DNA from: Deltaproteobacteria bacterium
Lineage (GTDB): Bacteria > Desulfobacterota > Binatia > DP-6
Direction of reading: 5' to 3'
Assembly (NCBI GenBank): GCA_005888095.1
Contig: VBKF01000105.1
Coordinates: 1 to 64,000, forward strand
Length of the DNA stretch: 64,000 nt
Positions 3,884 to 60,279 of the stretch are shown here, in pieces. The translations under genes and the position numbers were made by a program. A model generated the notes under the pieces. The model ran no database searches. It was given only the letters and a program-made list of their open reading frames with translations, and was not told the DNA's origin. Position 1 is the first letter of the stretch. Every line of letters starts with the position of its first letter.

Positions 3884-5017
3884 TCAGCCGCGCCAGGCGA
3901 GACGCAACGAGCTGCCCGACCTCAGGTTCGGCGCTACGGTTCGGCTGGTGGGGGATGGGGAGGTAAGGGGGGACGTGCGAGTTTCCCTGCGGCTCGCGCG
4001 GCGAAATTCGCGCGGAGCGACGCCGGTCCATCGCCGAAAGGCACGGGTGAAGTGGGCATGGTCCGAGTAGCCAAGATCGAGCGCGATATCGAGAACGGTG
4101 GCATCCGTGCCCTGGAGCAGATGGACCGCGGTGTCGAAGCGCGCCTGCGCAACCAGACGCCCGTAGCTCAACCCCCCCTCGGCCAACCGCCGTTGCAGCG
4201 CACGGATGCTCGTGCCGATCGCGCTCGCGGTGACGCCGATGCGGGGGCAGTCGGACGAGGACAGCGTCGCGATCACCTGCAGCACCGATAGCGGGAAGTC
4301 GCCCGCTGGACCCGATGCCCGCCATGCTTCGATGTCCCTGTCCCCGATCTGGCGAGCCGCCGCCGTCCGCACGAGCGGCCGAGTCAACAGGGACTGCGGG
4401 AACGTGAGGGCGGGTTCCCTTTGTCGGAAGACGATCCTCGCGTCGCGCACGACATCGGGGTCACGCAAGCCGTCCGTCCTGGTCGTCTCGAGCACCACGT
4501 CATCCCGCCGCCAGCGTGGTCCGGCGGCGAGACGCAGAACGTTGAGCGCCAGCATCAGGCTGTAGTCATCCGCTTGCCAGTGTGTGTCCGCGAGGCCGTC
4601 GACGAACCGATGACCCAGCCGCACTCGATCGCCGTCGTGCACGAGCCAAGCGTGCCCACCGGAGCTGAAGACTGCCAACGTGTTCATCGCGGTCTGGATC
4701 GCGTCATGGACTGTGCGCGAGCGGTGAATCAGGTGGCCGAAAACCCCGAGCGCGTCGATGGATGCGTGGTGTCCGGCGAGGAGCCCGAGATTTCCGACGC
4801 CGCTCATCCGCGCCGATTCCTCCATGAAGCCTAACGCTTGGGAAACGGAGAGCAGGTCTTCGGGATCGTCGAACATGGAACCCGAGAGGTGCGCGCGCGC
4901 AAGGAGCTGCTCGACGGGCGCGCCGATGCTCCGGAGAAAGGAGACGACGGGTATCAACCAAGCTACGCGGATGAGCGCGACGGGCTGCGACCGGGGACCT
5001 GCCCCGAGCTTGTGCAT
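3884..5017 (-). CDS. AraC-family activator, OruR/Arabinose_bd type
   Basis: A 377-residue protein. The N-terminal half (about 10-200) is the all-helical ligand-binding domain of OruR/VirS-like AraC proteins (LIRVAWLIPVVSFLRSIGAP ... LGLLAG). The C-terminal double HTH (about 255-345) shows SIRALQRRLAEGGLSYGRLV, then the diagnostic IALDLGYSDHAHFTRAFRRWTG and P-REFR. The frame extends to 5128, but MHKLGAGPRSQPV at 5017 fits the family length. It is divergent from the AAA regulator at 5127. It is the only intact AraC in the window and the best candidate to bind the 19-base element: such proteins use two HTHs on direct repeats about 10 bp apart. The ligand is unknown. Confidence 0.92.
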   Translation of the reverse strand: MHKLGAGPRSQPVALIRVAWLIPVVSFLRSIGAPVEQLLARAHLSGSMFDDPEDLLSVSQALGFMEESARMSGVGNLGLLAGHHASIDALGVFGHLIHRSRTVHDAIQTAMNTLAVFSSGGHAWLVHDGDRVRLGHRFVDGLADTHWQADDYSLMLALNVLRLAAGPRWRRDDVVLETTRTDGLRDPDVVRDARIVFRQREPALTFPQSLLTRPLVRTAAARQIGDRDIEAWRASGPAGDFPLSVLQVIATLSSSDCPRIGVTASAIGTSIRALQRRLAEGGLSYGRLVAQARFDTAVHLLQGTDATVLDIALDLGYSDHAHFTRAFRRWTGVAPREFRRASRRETRTSPLTSPSPTSRTVAPNLRSGSSLRLAWRG

Positions 5018-13932: not shown

Positions 13933-14337
13933 TCACCGTGGACCCGGTTTCCGTCGCGGTGCCAGGACGCCCTCGGCCGGATTCCGTCCGAGACGCCGGA
14001 AGTCCCGGGGCGTGCGACCCGTCCAGCGCAGGAAGGCACGCGTGAAGTGGCCGGCGTTCGAGTAGCCGATCGTGCGGCCGATCTCGCTGATCTTCCAGGC
14101 GGAATCCCGCAACATCTGCCGCGCCATCTCTGCGCGCGCCCGCGCCACCACCTGCGCGTACGTCACACCGTCCTCGCCGAGGCGGCGCTGCAGCGTCCGG
14201 GTGCTCATCCCGATCGCGCCGGCGACGAGCTGGATGTTCGGATAGCGCCCGGCGAACGAGCTCGAGACGACCTGGTGCACTTCGCCGACGAAGTCGCGCC
14301 GAGCGCTGGTGATTCGTGACGATCTTCCACCCGACAT
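13933..14337 (-). pseudogene. AraC-family regulator cut down to its DNA-binding domain
   Basis: 134 codons. They encode the linker and double HTH (VHQVVSSSFAGRYPNIQLVA; STRTLQRRLGEDGVTYAQVV; ISEIGRTIGYSNAGHFTRAF; GRTPRDFRRLGR). The N-terminal ligand-binding domain of about 200 residues seen in the intact homologue is absent. The frame has a start (14337) 48 bases after a perfectly placed 19-base element (site B), so it may still make an HTH-only protein. A constitutive or dominant-negative DNA-binding product is possible. I call it a pseudogene because all other members I know of this subfamily are full length. Confidence 0.7.
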
Positions 14338-23335: not shown

Positions 23336-25789
23336 ATGAAGCAAGAGCACACGATTCGCGCCGTCGGACTCGTGCTGGTGGCGCTGTTCTCTCCGGTTGC
23401 AGTCGTCCCCGCCGCTGCCGAGGATGCCGCCGCTGCACGGGTAGTGTATCCGACGGATCGTACCGTACTGCCGATCCCGGAGCCCGTGAATCCGCCCATC
23501 ACTGTGCTCGACGTTCGAAACGCCACGCCTCCGCCACGGTTCGAGGTGAAGGCGCCGCAGAACGCGCCCAACGTTCTGATCGTCCTGATCGACGACATGG
23601 GGTTTGGACAGTCTGGCGCCTTCGGTGGGCCCATCCACATGCCGACGGTGGAGCGCCTCGCGGGCGAGGGGCTGCGCTACAACGAGTTCCACACTACAGC
23701 GCTCTGCTCGCCGACCCGCTCGGCCCTGCTGAGCGGCCGCAACCATCACGTGAACAACTTCGGTTCGATCGCCGAGACCGCGACGGCATTCCCAGGCCAA
23801 ACCGGGCAGCGCCCGAACAGCGTCGCACCACTGGCAGAGATGCTGCGGCTGAACGGCTACAGCACGGCTGCCTTCGGAAAGTCGCACGAGACCGCTGCGT
23901 GGGAGGTGAGTCCATCGGGCCCGACCGATCGCTGGCCCACGCGTTCGGGTTTCGACAAGTTCTACGGCTTCATCGGCGGCGAGACCAACCAGTGGGCGCC
24001 GCTGCTCTACGACGGAATGATTCAGGTCGAGCCCTCGCACGACCCTCACTATCATCTCATGACTGACATGACCGACCAGGCGATCGCGTGGATGCGATAC
24101 GAGAAGTCCCTCACGCCGGACAAGCCGTTCTTCATCTACTTCGCGCCCGGTGCCACCCACGCGCCGCACCACGTGCCGAAGGAGTGGATCGCCAAGTACA
24201 AGGGCAAGTTCGACCAGGGCTGGGACGCGGTGCGCGAAGCGACGCTCGCACGGCAGAAGCAGCTCGGCGTCGTTCCGCCGGAGACCAAGCTCGCGCCGAA
24301 GCCGGAGGCCATCAAGGACTGGGCGACGCTGACCCCGGACGAGAAGAAGCTCTTCGCTCGCGAGATGGAGGTCTTCGCCGGGTTCGGCGAGTACACCGAC
24401 ACGGAGATCGGCCGGCTGATCGACGCTATCGGAGACGTCGGTCAGCTCGACAACACGCTGGTCTTCTACATCGTCGGCGACAACGGGGCGAGCGCCGAAG
24501 GTGGCATGGTCGGGCTCTTCAACGAGATGACGTACTTCAACGGCGTGCACGAGAGCGTCGGGGACATCCTGAAGCACTACGACGACCTCGGCGGCCCGAA
24601 GACGTACGGCCACTACGCCGCCGGGTGGGCCGTCGCGGGTGACTCGCCGTTCGAGTGGACGAAGCAGGTCGCGTCGAGCTACGGCGGCACGCGCAACGGG
24701 ATGGTGATCCGCTGGCCCAAAGGCATCCCGGCGAAGGGCGAGGTGCGATCCCAGTGGCATCACGTCATCGACATCGCCCCGACGATCCTCGAGGTGGCGG
24801 GCCTGCCCGAGCCGAAGAGCGTCGACGGAACGGTCCAGATCCCCATCGAAGGCGTGAGCCTGGCATACACCTTCAAGGACGCCAAGGCGCCGAGCCGGCA
24901 CACCACCCAGTACTTCGAGATCTTCGGCAATCGATCGATCTACAACGACGGCTGGCTCGCGGGCACCGTCCACCGCGCGGCGTGGGAGTTCAAGCCGCGG
25001 ACGACGCTCGAGAAGGACACCTGGGAGCTGTACGAGACTCGGACGGACTTCAGCCTGGCCAACGATCTCGCCGCGAAGAACCCGGAGAAGCTGAAGGAGC
25101 TGCAGGACCTCTTCCTCAAGGAGGCGGCGAAGTACCACGTGCTGCCCCTCGATGACCGGACCCTGGAACGCTTGAATCCCGCACTCGTCGGGCGGCCCGA
25201 TCTCATGGCGGGCCGGACCTCACTGACGGTCTACGACGGTATGACCGGGATGTCCGAGAATGCCTTCATCAACGTGAAGAACCGGTCGCACGCGATCACC
25301 GCACACGTGGAGATTCCCAAAGGCGGGGCAAACGGCGTGGTCCTGGCTCAGGCGGGTCGGTTCGGCGGCTGGAGCCTTTACCTGAAAAACGGCAAGCCGA
25401 CGTACATCTACAACTTCCTGGGGCTGCAGCGGTACACGGTGGCGGCCGAGCGGGCGCTGCCGCCCGGGAAGGCGACCATCCGTTTCGAGTTCGCCTATGA
25501 CGGCGGCGGTGTCGGGAAGGGCGGCACGGGTAAGTTGTTGGTCGACGGCAAGGCGGTTGCGTCGGGACGGATCGAACGAACCCAGTGCTGCGCGTTCTCG
25601 GCAGACGAGGGCGCCGACGTGGGCGCCGACGAGGGCACGCCGGTGACCGAGGACTACACCGTGCCGGCGAAGTTCACCGGCACGATAGACGAGGTGACAA
25701 TCGACCTGCAGGAGGTGAAGGCCGCCGACAGGGGCGAGGTCGAGGTCTCACGCAAGACTGCCGCGCTGAAGAAGGGGCTGTCCGACTAG
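23336..25789 (+). CDS. Arylsulfatase, large form (FGly type)
   Basis: An 817-residue secreted protein with a signal peptide ending PAAAED. The sulfatase fold begins at NAPNVLIVLIDDMGFG (metal ligands D86, D87). The active-site motif is C124-S-P-T-R, where Cys is oxidised to formylglycine. Further ligands are in AFGKSHET and VGDNGASAEGG. The last 180 residues are a beta-sandwich-like C-terminal domain (KGGANGVVLAQAGRFGGWSL; GKGGTGKLLVDGKAVASG). It resembles the AtsA-like sulfatases that hydrolyse aryl or alkyl sulfate esters in the periplasm. A stump of a second such C-terminal domain is at 38038. Confidence 0.95.
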   Translation: MKQEHTIRAVGLVLVALFSPVAVVPAAAEDAAAARVVYPTDRTVLPIPEPVNPPITVLDVRNATPPPRFEVKAPQNAPNVLIVLIDDMGFGQSGAFGGPIHMPTVERLAGEGLRYNEFHTTALCSPTRSALLSGRNHHVNNFGSIAETATAFPGQTGQRPNSVAPLAEMLRLNGYSTAAFGKSHETAAWEVSPSGPTDRWPTRSGFDKFYGFIGGETNQWAPLLYDGMIQVEPSHDPHYHLMTDMTDQAIAWMRYEKSLTPDKPFFIYFAPGATHAPHHVPKEWIAKYKGKFDQGWDAVREATLARQKQLGVVPPETKLAPKPEAIKDWATLTPDEKKLFAREMEVFAGFGEYTDTEIGRLIDAIGDVGQLDNTLVFYIVGDNGASAEGGMVGLFNEMTYFNGVHESVGDILKHYDDLGGPKTYGHYAAGWAVAGDSPFEWTKQVASSYGGTRNGMVIRWPKGIPAKGEVRSQWHHVIDIAPTILEVAGLPEPKSVDGTVQIPIEGVSLAYTFKDAKAPSRHTTQYFEIFGNRSIYNDGWLAGTVHRAAWEFKPRTTLEKDTWELYETRTDFSLANDLAAKNPEKLKELQDLFLKEAAKYHVLPLDDRTLERLNPALVGRPDLMAGRTSLTVYDGMTGMSENAFINVKNRSHAITAHVEIPKGGANGVVLAQAGRFGGWSLYLKNGKPTYIYNFLGLQRYTVAAERALPPGKATIRFEFAYDGGGVGKGGTGKLLVDGKAVASGRIERTQCCAFSADEGADVGADEGTPVTEDYTVPAKFTGTIDEVTIDLQEVKAADRGEVEVSRKTAALKKGLSD

Positions 25790-27533: not shown

Positions 27534-27552
27534 TGGCGCGAAATGGCAAGAA
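27534..27552 (+). promoter_or_regulatory. 19-base element, site H (lipoprotein remnant)
   Basis: Reads TGGCGCGAAATGGCAAGAA. The remnant's ATG at 27600 is 47 bases away. No TA step at 19-22, consistent with a decaying unit. Confidence 0.65.
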
Positions 27553-27855: not shown

Positions 27856-28137
27856 ATGATCAGAAGACCGTTCGCCCTGGTGCCCGCGCTGTTTTTCGCG
27901 GGCGTCGCCGCCGCCCAGCAGTACCCGCTCATGGACATGATCGCCGACCGCGTCATCCAGAGGTACCGGCAGGCGTCCTGTGAGCAGCTGTGGGAGCGGA
28001 GAGGCAAGCCGAAACCGGAGGAGGAAAGGAACCTCATACAGATGATGCACGACGAGCCGCAGATGCGCACCGCGTTCATCAACAAAATAGCGGCTCCCGT
28101 CGCCAACAAGATGTTCGAGTGCGGCATGATCCCATGA
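27856..28137 (+). CDS. Small secreted helical protein (paralogue 1)
   Basis: A 93-residue protein with a signal peptide (FALVPALFFAGVAAAQ). A compact conserved core follows: MDMIADRVIQRYRQASCEQLW, then MRTAFINKIAAPVANKMFEC and GMIP at the very end. Two Cys (in ASCEQLW and MFECGMIP) probably form a disulfide. It is about 70 percent identical by eye to the protein at 30807. This small family occurs in sulfatase/DUF3604 neighbourhoods, but its function is unknown. A good ribosome-binding site (AGGAAGGAG) precedes it. Confidence 0.85.
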   Translation: MIRRPFALVPALFFAGVAAAQQYPLMDMIADRVIQRYRQASCEQLWERRGKPKPEEERNLIQMMHDEPQMRTAFINKIAAPVANKMFECGMIP

Positions 28138-28159
28138 TCGCCGTACGCGGGCCGCAGCT

Positions 28160-28306
28160 TCCCGCCGCGCCCGTTCTTCGGCGACACGCACCTGCACACG
28201 TCATTCTCGATGGATGCGGGGGCGTTCGGCTGCCGCCTCGGCGCGCGGGACGCGTACCGGTTCGCCACGGAAGATCGCTTGAAATTTGCGAGAATTTGCA
28301 CATAAG
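28160..28306 (+). pseudogene. DUF3604 remnant 1
   Basis: Reads PRPFFGDTHLHTSFSMDAGA and FGCRLGARDAYRFATE, the conserved N-terminal part of DUF3604 proteins, where HLHT is a metal-binding segment of a PHP-like fold. It breaks off into DRLKFARICT and a stop. Signal peptide and about 550 C-terminal residues are missing. Confidence 0.8.
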
Positions 28307-28397
28307 GGTCTGGCTCACTTCGGACGGGCGCGGGTGACGAGAGGGCGAGGCGGCGATGCATGACGATGATATGACGCAGCGAGCCCATGAGGGGCGT

Positions 28398-29270
28398 ATG
28401 CACGCAGAGTGGCCGGTCCTCGCGCTCTTCGTCGCCGTTCTGGGCGCGTCGGCAGCCATCGCTGCGCCAACCCCTCCTGCCCACCAGTGCAGCGACCCAT
28501 GCTTGCAGGCGGCGAGGGACGCACGATCGGAGTGCTTGTCGAGTGCGTCCGGCGCGTTCACGGACGCGTTCGATGCGTGTCTCGAACGCGATCAAGAATG
28601 CATCGACGCGTGCCGGTTCCAACTGGGGGAGTGCCGCGACAGCACCGGGGCGGGCGCCGATCTCTTCGCGTGCCAGCTCGAGCTGAAGGCGGCGAAGGAC
28701 CGGTGTCGGAACAAGTTTCCGCTCGGGTCGAGGAGGCGGGAGATCTGCATCGACCGAGCGCAGATCGCGGGCTTCCGGTGTCGCCGGGCCGTCCTCCGGC
28801 ATCTCCGGCGGGCGCTGCGCGACTGCCGTTCGGCGTTCGGTCAGTGCGCGAATGCATGCGTCCCGGGCGGGCCGCCGGGCGGCGTCGACACGTGCAAGGC
28901 GGATGCGAAGGCCGCGCTCCAGGCAGACCTGGCGAGCTGCAAGGCCACCTACCAGGTGACGGCGAGTGGATGCATCAACAAGGACGGCACGTGCGTCCAG
29001 GGATGCGGCGATGCCCGCGATGCGTGCAGCGCCCCGACACAGTCGATGCTCGCGGCGGCCATGATGGTGTGCACGGCGCAGGAGAAGGCGGCCGCGGCGG
29101 CCTGCGTGCAGGCGAACCCGGGCGGCGGCTCGCCCCTCGATCAGTGCCTCACCACCGCGCAGGCGAACGCGTTCGCCTGCCGCGAAGCCGCGCTCCAGGC
29201 CGCAGGGCCTGGCATTACCGCCTGTACGCAACAGTATGTCGGCTGCGTCAAGGCCTGTCCGGCCGCGTAG
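28398..29270 (+). CDS. Secreted Cys-rich protein
   Basis: About 290 residues; start at 28398 gives a signal peptide (VLALFVAVLGASAAIA). The mature part has more than twenty Cys in repeated pairs (CSDPCLQAARDARSEC; CLERDQECIDACRFQLGEC; GCINKDGTCVQGCGDARDAC) between Ala-rich helices. It ends CTQQYVGCVKACPAA. Similar Cys/Ala-rich repeats recur in proteins from Binatota-like genomes. The role is unknown. A longer frame begins at 28356, but that start would place 14 polar residues before the signal peptide. Confidence 0.8.
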   Translation: MHAEWPVLALFVAVLGASAAIAAPTPPAHQCSDPCLQAARDARSECLSSASGAFTDAFDACLERDQECIDACRFQLGECRDSTGAGADLFACQLELKAAKDRCRNKFPLGSRRREICIDRAQIAGFRCRRAVLRHLRRALRDCRSAFGQCANACVPGGPPGGVDTCKADAKAALQADLASCKATYQVTASGCINKDGTCVQGCGDARDACSAPTQSMLAAAMMVCTAQEKAAAAACVQANPGGGSPLDQCLTTAQANAFACREAALQAAGPGITACTQQYVGCVKACPAA

Positions 29271-29296
29271 AGGCCGCGGGGAAAGGAAGGAGCTGC

Positions 29297-30118
29297 ATGA
29301 CGCGCTTGGTGCGGATGACCCTCGTCCTGCTGGCGATCGGGGCATCGGGTGTCGGCGCGGCGGACGAGAAGTCGAAGTGGGAGTTCGAGGTCGAGCCCTA
29401 CGCATGGGTCACCGGGAACTACGGGTCGGTGACGGTGAAGGGGCGCACCGCACACATCACGGTCACGCCGATCGACCTGTACCAGCTGATGGAGGACGGC
29501 AACGCGTTCGGAGCCGCCGGTTACTTTTCGGTGAGCTACGATCGCTTCAGCGTTTTCGCCGATTCGATCGGCGGCTATGCCGAGGAATCCGTCACGGAGA
29601 CGATCCCGACAAAGTTCTGCACCCTGTCGTTCAGGGCCAAGGACAAGGTCACGTTCGCGATGGCGGACTTCGCGCTCGGCTATCGGCTCGGAGAGTGGTC
29701 CCTTCCGTACCGGCGCCGGCCCTTCACCCTCGGCGTGTATGCCGGGACGCGCTACATGTACTTCGGGAACCAGCTCAACGCGACCGGGGGGGTGGTCCAA
29801 GGGAAGCAGGGCAGCGCCAACGTCTTCGAGAGCTTCGCGTGGGCCGATCCGTTGATCGGGGTCCGTTGGTCGCTGCCGCTGCTCGACTTTCTCTCGCTCA
29901 ACTTCCGCGGCGACATCGGCGGCTTCGGGGCGAGCTCGGACCTCATCTGGGGCCTCCTCGGCACCGTGCGGCTCTGGGTTCCCTGGACGCCGGTAAAGTC
30001 GCTCCACCCCTTCGCCGATCTGGGCTACCGCGCGACCGCCTTCGACCGCTCGAACAGCCTGGGCAACATCGACCTGCAGTTTCGCGGCCCGCTCGCCGGC
30101 GGAGGCTTCGTATTTTGA
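29297..30118 (+). CDS. Outer-membrane beta-barrel protein
   Basis: A 273-residue protein with a signal peptide ending GVGAAD and a strong ribosome-binding site (GAAAGGAAGGAG). It has strand-turn repeats with many aromatics (WEFEVEPYAWVTGNYG; FTLGVYAGTRYMYFGNQLNA; PLIGVRWSLPLLDFLSLNFR) and a terminal Phe (GGGFVF), the usual signal for BAM-mediated barrel insertion. Two collapsed relatives lie at 15637-15907. The solute or function is unknown. Confidence 0.85.
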   Translation: MTRLVRMTLVLLAIGASGVGAADEKSKWEFEVEPYAWVTGNYGSVTVKGRTAHITVTPIDLYQLMEDGNAFGAAGYFSVSYDRFSVFADSIGGYAEESVTETIPTKFCTLSFRAKDKVTFAMADFALGYRLGEWSLPYRRRPFTLGVYAGTRYMYFGNQLNATGGVVQGKQGSANVFESFAWADPLIGVRWSLPLLDFLSLNFRGDIGGFGASSDLIWGLLGTVRLWVPWTPVKSLHPFADLGYRATAFDRSNSLGNIDLQFRGPLAGGGFVF

Positions 30119-30134: not shown

Positions 30135-30192
30135 GCCGAGGAGAACCCCGAGCGCAACGTCTACCTCGGGTCGGCGGCCTGCCGGTCGTGAC
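30135..30192 (+). pseudogene. DUF3604 remnant 2 (a few codons)
   Basis: Reads LAEENPERNVYLGS before an immediate stop. The NPERNVYLG segment is the same as NPERNVYFG at the start of the better preserved remnant at 36461. It is only about 15 codons but matches a highly conserved start of mature DUF3604 proteins. Confidence 0.55.
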
Positions 30193-30275
30193 CCGGCGTC
30201 GACGGCCAACCGCTCCGAGCATGCGGCCGTGATCGACGCGCAACCCACGCCCACCGCCGTCGCGGGCCGGGCACA

Positions 30276-30437
30276 GTCGCCGCGCTGCTGGCTGTGGTAG
30301 AGCTCCATCGCCACGAGCCGGGCGAGCGTGAGCGCCGGGAAGAGCTGTCCGGTGAATCCCTCGAGAGCCGCCAGCGAGCGGGCGATCGGATTGACGGGCG
30401 TGATGTCGCCGTAGCCGATGGTCGAGAGCGTGATCTG
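30276..30437 (-). pseudogene. K+ channel C-terminal remnant
   Basis: The minus strand reads QITLSTIGYGDITPVNPIAR and SLAALEGFTGQLFPALTLAR to LVAMELYHSQQRGD. This is the selectivity filter (TIGYGD) and last helix of an Ion_trans_2 channel, as in the copies at 14544 and 36989. Everything upstream of the filter is gone. The fragment is joined directly to the Fis end of a sigma54 regulator. Confidence 0.8.
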
Positions 30438-30439
30438 AG

Positions 30440-30605
30440 CGTCTCGAGCGTCGTCGGCAGAAGCGCGAGGAGGGTCGCAGCGCCCTGCACCCCCGCGCAC
30501 ACGCCGGCTTGCGTTGCCGCTCCCGACGATCGGGTGGATCGCCTTTTGCGTCCGCGACACCCGACGGCGGCGCGACCATGTCTCGGCCCAAGTTGATGTA
30601 GGCTA
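30440..30605 (-). pseudogene. Sigma54 activator collapsed to its two ends
   Basis: The minus strand first reads MVAPPSGVADAKGDPP-like sequence (30532-30597), matching residues 4-22 of the intact activator at 58666-60279 (LGGDIAAVPSGLADATG). After about 25 codons it continues as AGVQGAATLLALLPTTLET (30440-30508), matching the Fis HTH end (GLQGAATLLGLPPTTLET). About 480 residues (GAF, AAA) are missing. The start ATG has become ATC. The promoter side, including site I, is closely similar to the intact gene. Confidence 0.8.
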
Positions 30606-30628: not shown

Positions 30629-30647
30629 GTCTTGCCATTCCGCGCCA
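30629..30647 (-). promoter_or_regulatory. 19-base element, site I (collapsed activator)
   Basis: Reads TGGCGCGGAATGGCAAGAC on the minus strand. The flanks match those of site L: both are followed by CGGAYGGCCCGAAAGAG. It points at the collapsed sigma54 activator. Confidence 0.75.
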
Positions 30648-30743: not shown

Positions 30744-30762
30744 TGGCGTCAAATGGCAAGAC
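30744..30762 (+). promoter_or_regulatory. 19-base element, site J (small secreted protein)
   Basis: Reads TGGCGTCAAATGGCAAGAC. A TA step (TATCCG) starts 19 bases downstream, and the ATG at 30807 is 44 bases away. It stands back-to-back with site I, 96 bases apart. Confidence 0.8.
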
Positions 30763-30806
30763 GGACGCCGCGGATGCGAGTATCCGGGATGCGGATGACA
30801 ACGACC

Positions 30807-31079
30807 ATGATCAAACGACTGGTACCCGCGCTGCTTTTCGCCGGCGTCGCCGGCGCTCAACAAGACCCGATGCTGGACATGATCGCCGACAAGGTCATCC
30901 AGAAATACCAGCAAGCGAGCTGCGAGCAGCTCTGGCAGAGGAAGGGCCAGAAGAAACCACCGATGGAACAGGAAGCCATACAGAAGCTTCGCGATAATCC
31001 GGGTCTGCGCACTGCCTTCATCAACCGAGTAGCGGCTCCCATCGTCAACAAGATGTTCGAATGCGGGATGATCCCATGA
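30807..31079 (+). CDS. Small secreted helical protein (paralogue 2)
   Basis: A 90-residue protein with signal peptide MIKRLVPALLFAGVAGAQ and the same core as paralogue 1: MDMIADKVIQKYQQASCEQL-type sequence and a C-terminal MFECGMIP. Both Cys are kept. An alternative in-frame ATG at 30795 exists. Its stop overlaps the ATG of the DUF2092 gene (ATGA at 31076), so the two are coupled, and site J drives the unit. Confidence 0.87.
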   Translation: MIKRLVPALLFAGVAGAQQDPMLDMIADKVIQKYQQASCEQLWQRKGQKKPPMEQEAIQKLRDNPGLRTAFINRVAAPIVNKMFECGMIP

Positions 31080-31996
31080 GTGTCGCTGGGCGAGGACTCA
31101 ATTCGGATGCTCGTCGGAAGGGCGCCACGATGATGCGAGGCCAGTCGCTCGGTGCGCTGCTGCTCGCGTTGGGTGTGCTCCTGGCGGCGCCCGGGAAGGC
31201 CCAGCCGCAACCAGCGCCGCGGGCTTCGAAGCCAGCCAAGCCGTCGAGCAAGGCAGCCGCACATCCGGTCGAGCCGGCGCTCGAACCCAAGGCGATCGAC
31301 CTCCTGAAGGCCTCGTCCAGCCGCCTGGCCGCTGCTCACTCGATGACGTTCACGACGGTGATCAGCTACGAGAGCCCGAGCCGCCTCGGGCCTCCCCTCA
31401 TCTACACGACGAGGAGTGAGGTCACCCTGCAGCGACCCGACAAGCTCCGGGTGATCACGCCGGGCGACGGTCCCGCCAGCGAGTTCTACTACAACGGCAA
31501 GACGATGGTGGCCTTCGCACCGGCCGAGAACCTCGTCTCCACCGCCGAGGCCCCACCCACGATCGACGCCGCCTTGAAGGTGGCCTACGACTCCGCCGCG
31601 GTCTACTTCCCCTTCACCGACGTGATCGTCGCCGACCCCTACGAGGGGATCGCCGACGGGTTGAAGCATGCCTTCTACATCGGCCAATCCCACGTGGTCG
31701 GCGGAACGACGACGGACATGGTGGCAATCGCCAACAACTGGGTGTTCGAACAGATCTGGATCGGGGCCGACGACAAGCTGCCCCGAATGGCCCGGGCAGT
31801 GTTCCACGCAGATCCGCAGCATCTGCGCCACCAGATAGAGTTCTCCAACTGGCAACTCGACCCTACGGTCGCGGCGGACGCCTTCGCCTCGCCAAGCGCA
31901 GCAGCAAGGCCCATCCCGTTCGCCCGCCCGGACCTCCCGGCGCTCCCGCCGGGCGTCAAGCCTCGAACGAAAGCCAAGGCGTCCAAACCCAATTGA
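31076..31996 (+). CDS. DUF2092 secreted protein
   Basis: About 306 residues with a hydrophobic signal segment (SLGALLLALGVLLAAPGKAQ) after 23 leading residues; an ATG at 31130 may be the true start. The DUF2092 domain shows LLKASSSRLAAAHSMTFTTV, LQRPDKLRVITPGDGP, EFYYNGKTMVAFAPAENLVS, ADPYEGIADGLKHAFYIGQS and FSNWQLDP. The domain resembles LolA/outer-membrane lipoprotein-sorting folds, so binding of acyl chains is plausible but unproven. It is coupled to the small secreted protein and followed by the YGGS-repeat gene. Confidence 0.88.
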   Translation: MSVAGRGLNSDARRKGATMMRGQSLGALLLALGVLLAAPGKAQPQPAPRASKPAKPSSKAAAHPVEPALEPKAIDLLKASSSRLAAAHSMTFTTVISYESPSRLGPPLIYTTRSEVTLQRPDKLRVITPGDGPASEFYYNGKTMVAFAPAENLVSTAEAPPTIDAALKVAYDSAAVYFPFTDVIVADPYEGIADGLKHAFYIGQSHVVGGTTTDMVAIANNWVFEQIWIGADDKLPRMARAVFHADPQHLRHQIEFSNWQLDPTVAADAFASPSAAARPIPFARPDLPALPPGVKPRTKAKASKPN

Positions 31997-32013
31997 GGAG
32001 GCATAGCCGCATC

Positions 32014-32766
32014 ATGAAAAGAACTGTCATTGGCCTCATGGGTCTCCTGATCGCGGCGCTCGCGCCCGGGCCGGCCGGGGCCTTTTCGCATTCGGGCAGT
32101 TGGGGCGGCAGCACGTCGCACAGCCGAGGGTCCACGAGCCACAGCAACGCCTATGGTGGCAGCTCGTCGCACAGCTACGGGGAAGGCAGCAGCCACACCA
32201 ACGCCTACGGGGGCAGCTCGTCGCACAGCTACGGGGGAGGGAGCAGCCACACCAACGCCTACGGGGGCAGCACGTCGGGTACCTACGGGCAGGGCGCCAC
32301 CCACACCAACGTCTACGGTGGCACCACATCGGGCGCCTACGGGCAGGGCGCCACCCACACTAATACCTACGGCGGCACTACGACGGTGTCCGGCGCCTAC
32401 TACGGCGGCTCCTACCCAGCGTACCATCCGCCCACCACCGTCAACTACTACGGATCCGGGTGCTCCAACTGTGGGGGCTGGTCCACCGCCGGCGCTGCTG
32501 CTGCAGGCGCCGCGGTCGGCGTTGTCGCCGGGTCGGCCGTCGCCTCAGCCAATAACAGCGCCGCCAATTCGAATGCCTACTCCGCGGGTTACGCCGCTGG
32601 CAGCACCAACACCGCGTATGCGATGGGCGCGATCTATGCGAATCCGCCTGCCGGCTGCGCAACACCCAACGTCGGCGGCACGACCTATTACCTGTGCGGC
32701 AACACCTGGTTCCAGCCGTTCTATGGTGCGAACGGCGTCTCCTACCGTGTGGTGCCCACTCCCTGA
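32014..32766 (+). CDS. Secreted YGGS/HS-repeat protein
   Basis: A 250-residue protein with a signal peptide (LMGLLIAALAPGPAGA). Residues 22-130 are Ser/Gly/Tyr/His-rich with four 18-residue repeats of the type NAYGGSSSHSYGEGSSHT. An Ala-rich, membrane-like stretch (AAGAAVGVVAGSAVASANNS) and a C-terminal domain with paired Cys (PAGCATPNVG, TYYLCGNTWFQPFY) follow. Repeat His could bind metal. The gene regularly accompanies DUF2092 in other genomes as far as I recall, and here it is 17 bases downstream. The function is unknown. Confidence 0.85.
   Translation: MKRTVIGLMGLLIAALAPGPAGAFSHSGSWGGSTSHSRGSTSHSNAYGGSSSHSYGEGSSHTNAYGGSSSHSYGGGSSHTNAYGGSTSGTYGQGATHTNVYGGTTSGAYGQGATHTNTYGGTTTVSGAYYGGSYPAYHPPTTVNYYGSGCSNCGGWSTAGAAAAGAAVGVVAGSAVASANNSAANSNAYSAGYAAGSTNTAYAMGAIYANPPAGCATPNVGGTTYYLCGNTWFQPFYGANGVSYRVVPTP
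32146..32361 (+). repeat. Four in-frame 54-bp tandem repeats
   Basis: Each unit encodes 18 residues: first two NAYGGSSSHSYG(E/G)GSSHT, then NAYGGSTSGTYGQGATHT and NVYGGTTSGAYGQGATHT. A partial fifth unit follows. The units drift from His-rich to Thr-rich along the array. Confidence 0.85.
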
Positions 32767-39725: not shown

Positions 39726-40403
39726 GTGACGTACAATCACCCCCTCTCCGACGCATCGCTCATCGCCTGCCCCCACTGCGACCTGCTGCAGCGCCTCCCG
39801 GACCTCGCCCCGGGCGCGTCGGCGCGCTGCCCGCGCTGCGACCGGGAGCTCTGGCGCCGCCGCGAGGATTCGCTCGACCGGGCGCTCGCCCTGGCGCTCG
39901 CGGCCGCCGTGCTGCTGGTGATCGCTAACGTCGTTCCGATGCTCGGCCTGACCGTGGTCGGTCGCCAGTCGTACACCACCGTGTTCGGGGGCGTGGTGCA
40001 GCTCTGGAACGACGGCCGGGAGCTGGTCGCGGCGCTCGTGCTCTTCACCGCCGTCGTCGCGCCCGCGCTCCAGGTCGCGTTCATGCTGGCGATCGTGCTC
40101 GGCGCGCAACGGGAACGGCCGCCGAGCTGGGTCGGGACGCTCCTTCGCCACCATCCGACCACCTGCACCTGGAGCATGATCGAGGTCATGATGCTCGGCG
40201 TGCTGGTGGCGCTCATCAAGATCGCGGACTACGCGAAGGTGATCCCCGGCCTCGCTCTGTTCGTGCTCGGGGCGCTCATCTTCCTGCTCGCCGCGATGCA
40301 GGCGGGCTTCGACCCCCGCGAGGTGTGGAGCCGGGTCGAGTGGGCGGAGGCGCGCGCCCGTCGCAAGCTCGTCGGCGAACCGATGCCCGCGGCGACGTCA
40401 TGA
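39726..40403 (+). CDS. pqiA: PqiA-like membrane protein, first half
   Basis: A 225-residue protein starting GTG. An N-terminal zinc-ribbon-like pair (CPHCDLLQRLPDL; CPRCDREL) precedes four helices of the paraquat-inducible A domain (LLVIANVVPMLGLTVVGRQS; VVQLWNDGRELVAALVLFTA; WSMIEVMMLGVLVALIKIAD; LAAMQAGFDPREVW). E. coli PqiA carries two such domains in one chain; here they are two genes. The stop overlaps the ATG of the second. Together with PqiB and PqiC it should make an inter-membrane lipid transport system. Confidence 0.9.
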   Translation: MTYNHPLSDASLIACPHCDLLQRLPDLAPGASARCPRCDRELWRRREDSLDRALALALAAAVLLVIANVVPMLGLTVVGRQSYTTVFGGVVQLWNDGRELVAALVLFTAVVAPALQVAFMLAIVLGAQRERPPSWVGTLLRHHPTTCTWSMIEVMMLGVLVALIKIADYAKVIPGLALFVLGALIFLLAAMQAGFDPREVWSRVEWAEARARRKLVGEPMPAATS

Positions 40404-41041
40404 GCGCGGTCGCCGTCACCGCCATGCCGCACGGCCTGCAGAGCTGCCCCTCGTGTAGCCTGCTCTCCCGTCCCGCGCCCGGCGAGGAAGAAGGGCGCTG
40501 CCCGCGCTGTGACCGGACGCTCTCCTTCCGCGAGGCAGGGAGCATCCAGCGGAGCTGGGCGTTCCTGATCGCGGCGGCCATCTGCTACATCCCGGCCAAC
40601 CTCCTCCCCGTCCTTACGACGGTCACGGCCTCGGGCCGCGACTCCGACACCATCATGCAAGGCGTCGTGCTCCTCTGGTCGCCAACCGGATGGCCACTCT
40701 CCCTGATCGTCCTCATCGCCAGCATCCTGATCCCGAGTGGGAAGATCGCGGCGCTCGCCTACCTGCTCTTCACGGCTCAGCGGGGCTCGATCGAGCGCAA
40801 CGAGGAGCGCATCCGGCTCTACCGGATCGTCGAGCTGATCGGCCGCTGGTCGATGGTCGACGTGTTCGTCGACACCTTTACCGCCGCGCTCGTGCAGCTC
40901 CAGCCGCTCATGTCCGTCGAGCCGGCGATCGGCCTGGTGTTCTTCGCGGCGGTCGTGGTGCTGACCATGCTCGCGGTCGAGTCGTTCGATCCCCGGCTGA
41001 TCTGGGATCCGCTGAGCGCGAGAGAGGTGCAGCATGCCTGA
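40400..41041 (+). CDS. pqiA: PqiA-like membrane protein, second half
   Basis: A 213-residue protein. The Cys pairs SCPSCSLLSR and CPRCDRTLS are followed by AAAICYIPANLLPVLTTVTA, GVVLLWSPTGWPLSLIVLIA, a middle RIVELIGRWSMVDVFVDTFT and the end FFAAVVVLTMLAVESFDPRL. It corresponds to the second domain of fused PqiA proteins. ATGA overlaps couple it to the gene before, and its stop overlaps the ATG of pqiB by eight bases. Confidence 0.9.
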   Translation: MSAVAVTAMPHGLQSCPSCSLLSRPAPGEEEGRCPRCDRTLSFREAGSIQRSWAFLIAAAICYIPANLLPVLTTVTASGRDSDTIMQGVVLLWSPTGWPLSLIVLIASILIPSGKIAALAYLLFTAQRGSIERNEERIRLYRIVELIGRWSMVDVFVDTFTAALVQLQPLMSVEPAIGLVFFAAVVVLTMLAVESFDPRLIWDPLSAREVQHA

Positions 41042-42596
41042 GCGGGACCAACCGCTGTCCCACGTCGCCGAGTCGCGGGCCGTCGCCAGGAAGCGCGCGC
41101 GGCTCTCCGTCGTCTGGCTCGTCCCGATCGTCGCCGCCCTCGCCGGCGTCTGGGTCGCGGTGACGAAGATTCGCAGCGAGGGCCCGAAGATGACGATCGT
41201 CGTCCCTTCGGCCGAGGGACTCGAGGCCGGCAAGACGAAGATCCGCTACAACGGCGTCGACATCGGCGGCCTCACGGCGATCCGGCTGTCGGACGATCAC
41301 GAACGCGTGATCGCGACGGCGCAGATGGAACCGAAGACCGAGGACTTCCTGGTCGAGGGCACGAAGTTCTGGGTCGTGCGACCACGCATCTCCGGTGCGA
41401 CCGTCTCGGGGCTCGGCACCCTCATCTCCGGGGCCTACATCGGCATGGAGATCGGGCAATCCAAGGAGAAGAAGCGCGAGTTCGTGGCACTCGCCGCGCC
41501 GCCGGTGGTGGCCGGCGACGTCCCCGGCCGCTTCTTCGTCCTCGAGACCTCGAACCTCGGCTCGCTCGACTACGGCACGCCGCTCTACTTCCGGCGGCTG
41601 GAGGTCGGCCAGGTCGTGTCGTACGAGCTCGACAAGGCAGGCAAGGCCATGACCGTTCGGGTGTTCGTGCACGCGCCCTACGATCAGTACGTCACCCCCA
41701 ACACGCGCTTCTGGCACGCGAGCGGGATCGACTTCTCGGTCTCCGCGACCGGCGTGAGCGTCCAGACCCAGTCGCTCCTCTCCATCCTGGTTGGCGGCAT
41801 CGCCTTCGAGACGCCGGCGATGGGCCCGGCCCTTTCTCCGGCCGAGGCGGAGACCGTGTTCACCCTGTTCGAGAAACGGAGCGATGCGTACAAGCCGGCC
41901 GCCCGCGATCCGCAGACCTACAGGCTCGTCTTCCGGCAATCGGTCCGCGGGCTCGCGCCGGGCGCCCCCGTGGAATTCCAGGGTATCCCGATCGGCGAGG
42001 TCGAAGAGATCAGCCCGCAGTTCGACCCGGCAACCGCCGAGTTCACGGTGCCGGTCACGATTCGCGTCGATCCGAGGATCGGGGTGAAGTTCGTCGACGA
42101 GAATCCCGGGGAGAAGCCCACGAACCGGCACAGGCTGGTCGAGGTGTTGACGTCGCGCGGGCTTCGCGCGCAGCTCCGCTCGGGGAGCCTGCTGACCGGT
42201 GCGCTGTACGTCGCCTTGGACTTCTTCCCCGACGCGCCCCCGGTGACCATCGATTGGTCGCAGCAGCCGGTGGAGATGCCGACCGTTCCCGGCAACCTCG
42301 AGGGGCTCGAGGCGAGCATCGCACGGATATTGAAGAAGGTCGACAAGGTCCCGATCCAGGGGATCGGCGACGGGCTCAATAAAGCGATCGCCGAGCTCGA
42401 CCTGACGCTAGTCAGCGCGCGCGGCACGCTCAACAGCGCCGACAAGGTCGTCCAGCCGGACTCGGCGCTCAGCGAGCAGCTCGGCAGCACGCTCCAGGAG
42501 CTCAGCCGTGCGGCCCGCGGCTTGCGCGGGCTTGCCGACTACCTCGAGCAGCATCCCGAGGCGCTCGTGCGCGGCAAGACCGGGGAGGCAAAGTGA
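41034..42596 (+). CDS. pqiB: PqiB-like MCE protein
   Basis: A 520-residue protein with one N-terminal helix (LSVVWLVPIVAALAGVWVAV), then three MCE/MlaD domains at about 45-140, 160-235 and 290-400. Key segments are EGLEAGKTKIRYNGVDIG, LETSNLGSLDYGTPLYFRRL, and VRGLAPGAPVEFQGIPIGEV. A C-terminal coiled region (IPGQ-like LNKAIAELDLTLVSARGTLN) would form the needle-like tube of PqiB. It would span the periplasm and carry lipids between membranes. Confidence 0.93.
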   Translation: MPERDQPLSHVAESRAVARKRARLSVVWLVPIVAALAGVWVAVTKIRSEGPKMTIVVPSAEGLEAGKTKIRYNGVDIGGLTAIRLSDDHERVIATAQMEPKTEDFLVEGTKFWVVRPRISGATVSGLGTLISGAYIGMEIGQSKEKKREFVALAAPPVVAGDVPGRFFVLETSNLGSLDYGTPLYFRRLEVGQVVSYELDKAGKAMTVRVFVHAPYDQYVTPNTRFWHASGIDFSVSATGVSVQTQSLLSILVGGIAFETPAMGPALSPAEAETVFTLFEKRSDAYKPAARDPQTYRLVFRQSVRGLAPGAPVEFQGIPIGEVEEISPQFDPATAEFTVPVTIRVDPRIGVKFVDENPGEKPTNRHRLVEVLTSRGLRAQLRSGSLLTGALYVALDFFPDAPPVTIDWSQQPVEMPTVPGNLEGLEASIARILKKVDKVPIQGIGDGLNKAIAELDLTLVSARGTLNSADKVVQPDSALSEQLGSTLQELSRAARGLRGLADYLEQHPEALVRGKTGEAK

Positions 42597-43192
42597 TGAC
42601 GCGCCGGATCGCTCCCGGTCTGCTCGTGCTCGTCGCCGCGGCGGCCGCCGGCTGCCGCGCCTCGGCGCCCGCGCGATTCTATACCCTCGACTCCCTCGCG
42701 ACCGCGGACGGCGCACCGCCCGCGAGCTACGCCGTCGTGGTCGGGCCGGTGTCGGTTCCCGCCTCCGTCGATCGACCGCAGTTCGTGGTGCAGGTCGCAC
42801 CGAACCGCGTCGAGGTCGACGAGTTCAATCGCTGGGCGGCACCGCTCGACGACGGCGTCGCCCGCGCCGTCGCCGGCAACCTCGCGACGCTCCTCGGGAC
42901 GCCGAAGGTGGCGACCGGGTCGCTCGCGAACTTCACGCCCGCGTATCGGGTGACGATCGCCGTCCAGCGCTTCGATTCGATCCCGGGCGACGCGGTCGTC
43001 GTCGAGACGGTGTGGACGGTCCGTGACTCGGCGGACGGCGGGACGCGCTCGGGGCGCACGGTCGCGCGCGAAGCGGTGCAGGGCAGCAGCTACGACGCGC
43101 TCGCGGCGGCGCACAGCCGCGCGCTCGCCAGGCTGAGCAGCGACATCGCGGCCGCCATCCGGGCCGAGGCCGGACGCCACGCCGTTCGGTAG
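42596..43192 (+). CDS. pqiC: PqiC-like outer-membrane lipoprotein
   Basis: A 198-residue lipoprotein (lipobox AAGCRAS). It has the ABC-type transport auxiliary (DUF330/PqiC) pattern: ARFYTLDSLA, VVVGPVSVPASVDRPQFVVQ, VEVDEFNRWAAPLDDGVARA and a last helix of Ala/Arg repeats. In E. coli the homologue sits in the outer membrane and docks the PqiB tube. Start at 42596 (ATG) behind GGGGAGG; a GTG three bases earlier is in frame. It ends the four-gene operon. Confidence 0.9.
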   Translation: MTRRIAPGLLVLVAAAAAGCRASAPARFYTLDSLATADGAPPASYAVVVGPVSVPASVDRPQFVVQVAPNRVEVDEFNRWAAPLDDGVARAVAGNLATLLGTPKVATGSLANFTPAYRVTIAVQRFDSIPGDAVVVETVWTVRDSADGGTRSGRTVAREAVQGSSYDALAAAHSRALARLSSDIAAAIRAEAGRHAVR

Positions 43193-51864: not shown

Positions 51865-53487
51865 TTACTTGGCCATTGCCGCCCTGGCTGCCTCGATCTT
51901 CGCCTTCACGGCATCGAGGTTGAAGCTCGCGCCCTTCTGCATCGGCGGGAACTCGACAGCCGTCATGGCCAGCTTCGCCACCTCCTGCTGGACGAAGACG
52001 AAGCGCCAGAACTCATACTTGAACCACCCGAAGTAGTCCTGCGCCCCATCTTTAGTTCCATTTTCCGGCCAGCCCGTGCGCTCGAAAGGATCGAGGCGAA
52101 GGTTGGTCAGGTAGGGCACGTCGGGGTGGGTCTTGTCACCCAACCAGCCGCCGGGCTGGTCAATGAAACGATACTTGAAGTCGTCGATGCGCACAGCGCC
52201 GAGCGCGCTTTCCCCGAAGTAGAAGATCTCGTGGCGGGCCGAGGGGCCTTTGCCGGTGATCATGGCCATCTGGTTGTAGCCGTCGAGATGCACCTTGTAG
52301 GTGGTATCGCCGAGCTTCTTGCCCTTCTTGAGATCCTCGACAATGTTCGGGTCGTCCGCGGCGGCCAGGAAGGTCGGGAACCAGTCGAGCCCGGAGATGA
52401 TGCCGTTCTCCACCTTGCCGGCGGGGACCTTACCGGGCCAGCGAATCATGGCCGGCACACGGAAGCCGCCCTCCATGATAGTCCCTTTGCATTGCGCGAA
52501 CGGCGTCTGTCCGCCATCGGGCCAGGTGAAGACTTCGGTGCCGTTGTCGGTGGTGAACACGACGATGGTGTTGTCGTCCACACCCATGTCTTTGAGCTTC
52601 TTCATCACATCGCCCACGATGTCGTCGATCTGGGCCATGCCGGCTTCGTGAATCGTCCAGCCATTCTTCGAATTGCGCAGGGCCTCATACTTGGGAGAGA
52701 GATGGGTGACGATGTGCATGCGCGTCGGGTTCAGCCAGAGGAAGAACGGCTTGCCGTCCGCCTTGGCCTTGTCCACGAACTTGAGCGACAGCTCGAGAAT
52801 CTCGTCGTCCACGGTCTCCATCCGCTTGGGATAGAGCGTGCCGGCATCCTCGATCTTCTGCTTGCCGATCTTGCCCCAACGTGGTTGCACCGTCGGGTCA
52901 TCCTTATCCGTCGCCCAACTGTGGACCATGTTGCGCGGGCCAACTCTGTCCAACAACTCCTGCGGGTAGGCGGGGTGCGCGGGGTCCTCCATCGCGTCGA
53001 GGTGATAGAGGTAACCGAAGAACTCGTCGAAGCCGTGGACGGTGGGCAGGAACTCATTGAGATCGCCGAGGTGGTTCTTGCCGAACTGCCCCGTGGCATA
53101 GCCGTGGGACTTGAGAGCCGTGGCAATGGTCACCGCCTGTGCGGGGATGCCGACGGGCGAGCCCGCCTGGCCGACCGTGGTCATGCCCGTCCGAATCGGA
53201 AGCTCGCCAGTGATGAAGTTCGCCCGGCCAGCCGTGCAGCTAGCCTCGGCGTAGTAGTCGGTGAAGAGCATGCCTTCGTTGGCCAGTTTGTCGAGATTCG
53301 GCGTCCGCCCGGCCATCATGCCCCGGCTGTAAGCGCCGATATTCCAAATGCCGATGTCGTCTCCCATGATGACGACGATGTTCGGCTTCTTGTCCGCAGC
53401 CGTAGCCGGAGCGGCGGCGCCGATGAGCGCGGCCAGCACCGCTGCTGAGATGCTGGCGATCACATTCGACTGGAATCGTACCTTCAT
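51865..53487 (-). CDS. Arylsulfatase, CxAxR-type active site
   Basis: A 540-residue secreted protein; the signal peptide ends PATAAD. The fold starts KPNIVVIMGDDIGIWNIGAY with the metal-binding DD. The modification motif is C84-T-A-G-R, with Ala where most sulfatases have Pro; C/S-x-A/P-x-R is accepted by some maturation enzymes. TGQFGKNHLGDLNEF and VVFTTDNGTEVFTWPDGG supply further ligands. The last 170 residues match the large C-terminal part of the family. Base composition is clearly more AT-rich than its neighbours (31 of 60 G+C at 52561-52620), so recent transfer is likely. AGCAGGAGG precedes the ATG. Confidence 0.93.
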   Translation of the reverse strand: MKVRFQSNVIASISAAVLAALIGAAAPATAADKKPNIVVIMGDDIGIWNIGAYSRGMMAGRTPNLDKLANEGMLFTDYYAEASCTAGRANFITGELPIRTGMTTVGQAGSPVGIPAQAVTIATALKSHGYATGQFGKNHLGDLNEFLPTVHGFDEFFGYLYHLDAMEDPAHPAYPQELLDRVGPRNMVHSWATDKDDPTVQPRWGKIGKQKIEDAGTLYPKRMETVDDEILELSLKFVDKAKADGKPFFLWLNPTRMHIVTHLSPKYEALRNSKNGWTIHEAGMAQIDDIVGDVMKKLKDMGVDDNTIVVFTTDNGTEVFTWPDGGQTPFAQCKGTIMEGGFRVPAMIRWPGKVPAGKVENGIISGLDWFPTFLAAADDPNIVEDLKKGKKLGDTTYKVHLDGYNQMAMITGKGPSARHEIFYFGESALGAVRIDDFKYRFIDQPGGWLGDKTHPDVPYLTNLRLDPFERTGWPENGTKDGAQDYFGWFKYEFWRFVFVQQEVAKLAMTAVEFPPMQKGASFNLDAVKAKIEAARAAMAK

Positions 53488-58665: not shown

Positions 58666-60279
58666 TCAGGCTGGCCGCCGGATACCGAGCTTTGCCATGC
58701 GCGTCTCGAGGGTCGTCGGCGGAAGCCCGAGGAGGGTCGCCGCGCCCTGCAGCCCGCGCACACGCCAACTGGCTTGTTCGAGCACCCGCACGATGTGCAG
58801 ACGCTCCACGTCTTCCAGCGCCAGACTCTCCGCGGTTGCTGTTCCCCGACGCTCGGGCGGGTCGATCCGGAGCACCGGCTCGCCGCTCAGGATGATCGCC
58901 CGTTCGACGACGTTCCGCAGCTCGCGGACGTTGCCGGGCCACGTGTATCGCTGCAGGTCACGGAGGCTGCTCACGTCGATGGCCTCGAATCGCTTCCCCA
59001 TCTTTCCCCCGATCTCGGTCACGATCGTGTGCACGAGTACCGGGATGTCCTCGGGACGCTCGCGCAACGGCGGAACCACGATGGGGAACACGGCCAGGCG
59101 GAAATAGAGATCGTTCCGGAAGCGGCCATCGGCGACGGCCTGCTCGAGATCGCGGTTCGTTGCCGCGATGACGCGGACGTCGACGCGGATCGTGCGCGGG
59201 CTCCCGAGTCGCTCGAACTCGCCTTCCTGCAAAACGCGCAGCAGCTTCGCCTGCAGCTCGAGCGGTAGCTCGCAGACTTCGTCGAGGAAGAGGGTGGAGC
59301 CGTGGGCGAGCTCGAAGCGTCCGACCTGGCGGGACAGGGCGCCGGTGTAGGCGCCCTTCTCTCGTCCGAACAGCTCCGCCTCGACCAGCGTCGCCGGCAG
59401 CGCAGCGCAATTGAGCTTGATTATCGGACGGTCCGCGCGGGTGCTCCTGGCGTGGATCGCTTCGGCGACGAGCTCCTTGCCCACGCCGGTCTCTCCCATG
59501 ATGAGTGCCACCGCGTCGGTCGGCGCCACTCGTTCGACCAGGGAAAGCGTCCGCTGGATCGCGCGGCTCTGACCGACGATCCGGGGCATGCCGATGGCGC
59601 TCCGCGTCTGCTGGCGAAGGAACCTGTTCTCCCGTTCCAGACGCTCCCGCAGCTCCTGCACCTCGGCGAGGGCAGCGCGGAGCTGTTGATCCATGTGTCT
59701 GCGGGCGAGCACGGCGCAGACCATGTGCGCCACCGTGCAGAGCCGATCGAGCACCGCGGGGGACCAGGTCCGTTCCGTCCTCATCGAGCCGAAGGCGAGC
59801 GCGCCGAGAACCTCGCCACCGGCCACGAGCGGCATCGTGGCGTTCGACCTCGGCCCCAATCGCTGGATGAGGGCCTTGTCGACGGCGGCTTCCTCGGGGA
59901 GGTCGTCGAGCCGGGAGAAGACGATTTTCTCGCCGCTCATCACCTGCATGTAGCTCCACGGCAGATCGGCTCGTCCCCACACCTTCGGGAACGGGTCCTG
60001 CCCCGGCACGGCCCACGAGTGGGTCACGACCAGGTCCTCCCCCGATCGCTGGAACAGGGTGCTCCGGTCGAGACCCAGCGCCTCGACGATGCGCCGCAGG
60101 CTATCCTCGATCGCTTGATCGACGCGCTCGGGATCGATGCTGATGAACCCCGCCGCGAGATCGATGATCAATGACTCGAATCGGAGGCGTTCCCCGACCT
60201 CGACCCGGGGACGCCTACCTGTCGCGTCCGCGAGACCCGACGGCACCGCGGCAATGTCTCCGCCCAAGGTCAGCATCAT
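58666..60279 (-). CDS. Sigma54-dependent activator with GAF domain
   Basis: A 537-residue protein. A GAF domain (about 45-195; LGLDRSTLFQRSGEDLVVTH; NATMPLVAGGEVLGALAFGS) leads through a coiled linker to an AAA+ domain with Walker A GETGVGKE at 262-269, the sigma54 contact loop GAYTGA at 309-314 and FLDE at 331-334. A Fis-type HTH with GLQGAATLLGLPPTTLETRM ends it. GAF-type activators sense small molecules or redox state. Site L is 23 bases upstream, so it may itself be AraC-controlled. A copy collapsed to its ends is at 30440-30605. Confidence 0.94.
   Translation of the reverse strand: MMLTLGGDIAAVPSGLADATGRRPRVEVGERLRFESLIIDLAAGFISIDPERVDQAIEDSLRRIVEALGLDRSTLFQRSGEDLVVTHSWAVPGQDPFPKVWGRADLPWSYMQVMSGEKIVFSRLDDLPEEAAVDKALIQRLGPRSNATMPLVAGGEVLGALAFGSMRTERTWSPAVLDRLCTVAHMVCAVLARRHMDQQLRAALAEVQELRERLERENRFLRQQTRSAIGMPRIVGQSRAIQRTLSLVERVAPTDAVALIMGETGVGKELVAEAIHARSTRADRPIIKLNCAALPATLVEAELFGREKGAYTGALSRQVGRFELAHGSTLFLDEVCELPLELQAKLLRVLQEGEFERLGSPRTIRVDVRVIAATNRDLEQAVADGRFRNDLYFRLAVFPIVVPPLRERPEDIPVLVHTIVTEIGGKMGKRFEAIDVSSLRDLQRYTWPGNVRELRNVVERAIILSGEPVLRIDPPERRGTATAESLALEDVERLHIVRVLEQASWRVRGLQGAATLLGLPPTTLETRMAKLGIRRPA

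Follow-up and report, generated by a model that had tools for sequence, protein, structure and literature searches.

The locus and its three genes

The window analysed here, a stretch of 64,000 nucleotides, holds at 30744–32766 a 19-base element with a TA downstream of it and three closely spaced genes for secreted proteins (Table 1), which confirms what the sequence-only reading had described. All three reading frames are present and open on the same strand, and each product begins with a Sec-type signal peptide, read by eye from the sequence. Judged from the family alignment, the likely start codon of gene 1 is ATG 30807 (in-frame alternatives at 30795 and 30753). The DUF2092 gene likely starts at ATG 31130, with GGAAGGG upstream (alternatives at 31061 and at 31076, the latter an in-frame ATG that overlaps the gene 1 stop codon as ATGA), and gene 3 likely starts at ATG 32014, behind GAGGAGGC and 17 bp after the DUF2092 stop codon. 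No second promoter-like site was seen at the operon; a consensus sigma-70 scan, a weak test, reported no promoter at all, and terminator-like sites occurred at chance level only.

Table 1. Positions of the features of the locus and of two related features nearby, numbered from the first base of the window.
Feature	Position	Strand	Description
Promoter element	30744–30762	+	TGGCGTCAAATGGCAAGAC; two TGGC boxes 10 bp apart; start of the locus
Putative −10 region	30780–30785	+	GTATCC; TA at 30781–30782, offset 20 from the end of the 18-mer
Gene 1 (small)	30807–31079	+	90-aa secreted protein, two cysteines, C-terminal MFECGMIP
Gene 2 (DUF2092)	31130–31996	+	PF09865; predicted LolA/RseB fold, signal peptide, Ala/Pro/Lys-rich linker
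Gene 3	32014–32766	+	Secreted repeat protein of 250 aa; a signal peptide is followed by the repeats, CxxC, a Gly/Ala segment and a C-terminal beta domain
Gene 3, repeats	32083–32406	+	54-nt (18-residue) repeats, predicted beta-hairpin sheet
Gene 3, CxxC motif	32461–32472	+	Reads CSNC in this protein; most relatives have CYNC or CYGC
Gene 3, Gly/Ala-rich segment	32485–32586	+	Zipper-like; part predicted helical at low confidence
Gene 3, C-terminal beta domain	32614–32763	+	Commonly ends in YGANGVYYRVVPxP; distantly linked to DUF6515; pLDDT about 95
Second element copy	30629–30647	−	Divergent; TA off the usual offset; points at a K+-channel-like remnant
Small-gene paralogue	27856–28137	+	66% identical; element copy at 27534–27551; outside the operon

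The gene pair is conserved across phyla

GTDB genomes were scanned with a DUF2092 alignment, which yielded 125 relatives. The best 80 of the 125 were used as loci; this set, found through DUF2092 itself, under-samples distant relatives. The 80 loci come from about eight phyla (Pseudomonadota, Cyanobacteriota, Acidobacteriota, Thermodesulfobacteriota, Myxococcota, Nitrospirota, Verrucomicrobiota and Binatota). A gene 3 partner, detected with a profile of its last 60 residues, lies directly downstream of DUF2092 on the same strand at 77 of them, and the other three are contig ends. The gap between the two genes is −4 bp at 18 loci and 4–30 bp at most others, lengths that reflect in part which start codons our script picked. 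At 43 of the 80 loci the small gene immediately precedes the pair in the same orientation; because it is missing there from almost half, it is not essential to the pair formed by DUF2092 and gene 3.

At more distant DUF2092 loci of related genomes (20–30% identity), the protein encoded downstream has a C-terminal domain of weak similarity wherever the contig extends far enough. A Gloeothece plasmid carries DUF2092 paired with a "DUF6515 family protein", and an arylsulfatase comes next. DUF2092 occurs in 21 of 98 related genomes. In the DUF2092 tree the window protein groups with 'Candidatus Binatus soli', in line with a source organism that most likely belongs to Binatia (Binatota). The phylum label changes 10 times in this tree against a minimum of 7, a count compatible with either vertical inheritance or transfer.

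The locus had been put forward as a candidate operon. Since gene order, strand and tight spacing are kept across phyla and the weak test gave no second promoter-like site, a picture of separate promoters and no conserved linkage fails. We conclude that the three genes are, on comparative sequence grounds, well supported as one real, conserved operon.

DUF2092 is predicted to have a LolA-like fold

Residues 78–287 of the gene 2 product match DUF2092 over profile positions 1–211 of 212 (E = 1.8e-55; 188 bits against a Pfam cut-off of 21.2). The Pfam LolA model did not match the window protein, DUF2092 being the only family reported at E up to 1. The AlphaFold2 model (pLDDT 93, pTM 0.87) retrieved LolA in a Foldseek search (E = 1.6e-11) and aligns with it at Z 16.3 and an rmsd of 2.8 over 178 residues; it also aligns with RseB (Z 14.7), MucB (Z 13.0) and LppX, LprF and LprG (Z about 11–12). 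Structure prediction and fold search thereby back the LolA-like look first noticed in the letters alone, and we predict with high confidence that DUF2092 adopts the LolA/RseB half-barrel fold. Maltose-binding fusions, returned by a PDB sequence search with the profile, were weak matches and are taken as chance.

Arg55 (R55) is invariant in 65 sequences. A LolA-type lid Arg has been reported for DUF2092 (PMC4520260), and R55 is a candidate counterpart of the LolA lid Arg. DUF2092 resembles LolA and LolB in its fold, in periplasmic export and probably in an invariant Arg within an RP motif, and differs from LolA in escaping the Pfam model and in having as operon partner a repeat protein that carries no lipobox. 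As membership of the LolA family is not borne out by the sequence model, we regard it as a LolA-fold protein whose dedicated partner belongs to an unnamed family; its patchy presence in related genomes argues that it is not the housekeeping LolA.

The known roles of LolA-fold proteins are the carriage of lipoproteins or lipids and the sensing of stress. DUF2092 shares its fold with the mycobacterial lipid carriers LprG, LppX and LprF, and some of its relatives look like lipoproteins; unlike those carriers, it is found in other phyla and with other partners. At three loci (L015, L020 and L024) the DUF2092 protein starts with a lipobox-like LxAC motif, which suggests membrane-anchored versions.

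The similarity to RseB and MucB, which DUF2092 resembles in its LolA-like domain, raises the possibility that it senses misfolded envelope proteins or lipids, with the gene 3 product or the small protein as its ligand. PqiA, EipA and HdeA, found behind copies of the promoter element (see below), would give such a sensor an envelope-stress-like regulon. However, the DUF2092 model ends after a single LolA-like domain, the remainder being a low-confidence tail, whereas RseB has a second domain, and no sigma/anti-sigma pair was noticed when the recurrent neighbour clusters were looked over. We consider a sensory role quite improbable.

Gene 3 encodes repeats predicted to form a single-layer sheet

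Four 18-residue repeats had been counted in the gene 3 product: the unit length stands and the number does not, the region comprising about five to six units. In the structure model, residues 30–120 form paired strands every 18 residues (pLDDT 84–89) and the C-terminal 50 residues form a beta domain modelled with high local confidence (Table 1), with the middle at low confidence; overall confidence in the repeat model is medium (pTM 0.36). The repeat sheet aligns with the single-layer sheets of the CPAP G-box, OspA and MORN proteins at Z 8–11, which is modest for repeats and speaks of shape only; unlike the arrangement, the sequences show no relation and the functions are unrelated. The repeats are thus predicted to form a free-standing single-layer beta-sheet.

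Across the family the repeats, about 18 residues long and rich in Gly, Ser, Thr and Tyr, are of two types, His/Tyr and Gly/Trp. Repeats of this length and composition, in a sheet with open edges whose shape is related to those of the CPAP G-box and OspA, could belong to a fibre or adhesin: the gene 3 product would polymerise extracellularly in the manner of curli-type functional amyloids, and the other two proteins would be its periplasmic helpers. We find this improbable, as a look over the recurrent neighbours within 6 kb brought up no conserved gene for an outer-membrane secretion channel.

Histidine makes up about 6–10% of the repeat region in many members, which would suit metal binding by the repeats during metal limitation, a role hinted at in the sequence-only reading. 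About a quarter of the family, however, has repeats of the Gly/Trp type, most with 1.5–5% His, in the same operon, and no metal transporter was noticed among the recurrent neighbours. This large His-poor group weakens the hint; we reject metal binding as a family-wide role and give it hardly any credence as an explanation of the operon.

The CxxC motif is present in 76 of 78 gene 3 sequences. The C-terminal cysteines come as a pair: 46 sequences have both, 28 have neither and in 2 they are unpaired, and such covariation is the pattern expected for a disulfide. The protein has no lipobox, no credible Pfam family and no convincing NCBIfam match; Pfam matches to SBSN_GxHH and Creb_binding were set aside as low-complexity or chance. 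DUF6515 (PF20125) matched none of 40 members (the window protein and 39 relatives) at E 0.1. It is matched by the C-terminal domain of the partner in two distant DUF2092 operons (L010 and L227), and the link of gene 3 to DUF6515 runs through these distant relatives; the repeats in front of the domain are different.

The small protein accompanies one repeat type

Cys39 and Cys86 of the small protein are invariant in 46 sequences. No credible Pfam family was found for it, and an NCBIfam scan of its two window copies returned none. The small gene accompanies His/Tyr repeats in 39 of 54 cases versus 4 of 22 otherwise (Fisher p 2.4e-5, uncorrected for kinship). Within 27856–30118, downstream of the small-gene paralogue, come genes for a secreted, Cys-rich protein of 304 aa and for what is likely an outer-membrane barrel; genomes G002 and G005 have the element in front of proteins that resemble relatives of this Cys-rich protein.

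A promoter-type element shared with other envelope genes

The 19-mer at the start of the locus is a member of a repeated element, TGGCNNNNAATGGCAAGA, which has 9 exact sites in the 5.46-Mb genome and 17 at up to one mismatch; the reversed element, used as a control at the same threshold, gave 0. The sites lie on three contigs only, 11 of the 17 on that of the window. Among six other genomes of the family, four carry 8–15 sites and two carry one. Over 56 sites in five related genomes, a TA follows the 18-mer at an offset of 20 (20 sites), 21 (12) or 22 (3), together 35 of the 56, and at other offsets mostly 0–3 times. By this recurrence and spacing, the element is a real promoter-type signal. 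A sigma-54 reading (TGGC...GC) was rejected: the GG-to-GC spacing is one base shorter than in the sigma-54 consensus, and a −10-like TA stands at a fixed distance.

The two TGGC half-boxes (TGGC-N6-TGGC) lie about one helical turn apart and before the −10, an arrangement of the AraC/XylS type. XylS sites in the Pm promoter have an A box and a B box with 6 bp between them (PMC5481539); the element likewise has two short boxes with 6 bp spacing, and differs in reading TGGC/TGGC rather than TGCA/GGTA, in the one copy seen per promoter and in having a regulator that is still a candidate. The element adjoins AraC genes in members of the family. In Synechocystis sp. B12 (L228:2645) it lies 35 bp from the AraC start with its TA at 20, and it also stands beside AraC genes in cyanobacterium RI_101, in a proteobacterium (L134, on both sides) and, more weakly, in Variovorax. 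Most AraC proteins beside elements share similar helix-turn-helix motifs. From this proximity we infer that this AraC type regulates via the element.

Genes behind element sites encode sulfatase, DUF3300, DUF3604, PqiA, EipA, HdeA, OmpA, bestrophin-like and DUF2092 proteins. The element precedes the DUF2092 operon in two more genomes, G003 (one mismatch) and G005 (two mismatches). Because it was undetected at most of the 80 DUF2092 loci, the operon is more widespread than this promoter control and elsewhere does not rely on it.

Further copies in the window lie at 14404(−), 14468(+), 15223(+), 18395(+), 23186(+), 25844(−), 27534(+), 39292(+) and 60321(−), mostly upstream of envelope or regulator genes; the copy at 25844(−) faces a sulfatase gene from its 3′ side and fits no gene. 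The divergent second copy forms an inverted repeat with that of the operon (30619–30647/30744–30772). Behind element 30647, the K+-channel-like remnant (TIGYGDITPVNP; 30157–30600, − strand) has a poor coding frame and is probably decaying. AraC-type DNA-binding domains are encoded at 13933–14337 (−) and 3998–4228 (−), the former in a reading frame of 134 aa that immediately follows an element and may be a truncated regulator. A sigma-54 activator with a GAF domain (58666–60279, − strand) has an element 24–42 bases upstream of its reading frame, and through it the element regulon may feed into a second regulon.

A compact form of the gene set is found on the Synechocystis sp. B12 plasmid CP101712 (L228:1618–7067), where an AraC gene, the element and DUF1254 stand together with DUF2092, whose annotation is split in two, and with a hypothetical gene further downstream. 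Recombinase and transposase genes lie nearby, and this package is possibly mobile.

Sulfatase and lipid-transport genes around DUF2092

Genes around the 80 DUF2092 loci encode sulfatases (34 loci, by phmmer), an OmpA lipoprotein (15), bestrophin-like proteins (13), DUF1254 (12), PqiA, PqiB and PqiC (12, 10 and 8) and FadL (9), frequencies that are counts at DUF2092 loci alone. Genes of these kinds also stand behind the element. The window itself holds two sulfatase genes (23336–25789 and 51865–53487) and PqiABC (39726–43192). A sulfatase-activating FGE is present in L131 and also near DUF2092 on a Rhizobium plasmid.

These neighbours bear on the nearest rival to the chaperone model set out below. 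DUF2092 would here ferry a lipid or other hydrophobic molecule, perhaps sulfated, between the sulfatase, PqiABC and the outer membrane, and gene 3 would be merely co-expressed as a surface or periplasmic scaffold rather than a client. The sulfatase, PqiA, PqiB, PqiC and FadL counts, the two FGE occurrences and the sulfatases and PqiABC of the window speak for it, as do the fold similarity to LppX, LprF and LprG and the relatives read as lipoproteins (L015, L020 and L024). It leaves the strict coupling of gene 3 unexplained, while sulfatase and PqiABC are optional neighbours. We regard lipid carriage with gene 3 as a bystander as possible and on the whole unlikely.

A candidate carrier for a repeat protein

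Our tentative preference, which we rate somewhat below an even chance, is an operon under AraC control whose LolA-fold protein works in the periplasm as carrier or chaperone of the repeat partner, within a lipid- and sulfatase-related envelope programme. The TGGC-N6-TGGCAAGA element would be the binding site of an AraC/XylS-type activator and would overlap with the promoter's −35 region; the −10 would start at TA 30781. Sec-type signal peptides would take the three proteins out of the cytoplasm. In the periplasm, DUF2092 would act as the dedicated carrier or chaperone of the gene 3 product, shielding its Gly/Ala segment or C-terminal domain en route to the outer membrane or the surface. The bare beta-sheet repeats may serve as a rigid spacer or building block, the CxxC motif and the C-terminal cysteine pair would form disulfides, and the small protein would be an accessory for the His/Tyr repeat type, with which its gene co-occurs. 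The set would belong to an envelope programme that includes sulfatases and PqiABC-type lipid transporters.

We infer the client relation between DUF2092 and gene 3, and any physical complex of the proteins; co-inheritance does not prove contact. LolA handles lipoproteins, which it passes from LolCDE to LolB, and the missing lipobox of gene 3 is for that reason a point against the client model. What DUF2092 binds may instead be free lipid or a different client, and the system may work like a LolA-type carrier. A bolder version, which we hold to be doubtful, would have a LolA-fold chaperone for a non-lipoprotein beta-sheet client act with a small disulfide-bearing co-factor to give a surface structure, with the AraC regulator, element, sulfatase, PqiABC and DUF2092 operon spreading between phyla as one regulated package.

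No paper on the three-gene operon was found in the open-access literature; this, together with the lack of a credible family model for the small protein and gene 3, agrees with the earlier suggestion of a system not yet described. Its interest lies in a LolA-fold protein tied by operon, across about eight phyla, to a specific repeat protein without a named family. The survey PMC8262859 describes the Binatota as yet-uncultured. For this group, the shared element offers a handle on an envelope regulon and on the families DUF3300, DUF3604 and DUF2092, and a new class of client or ligand for the LolA fold would be directly testable in cultivated relatives, among them Paraburkholderia, Methylomonas and Synechocystis.
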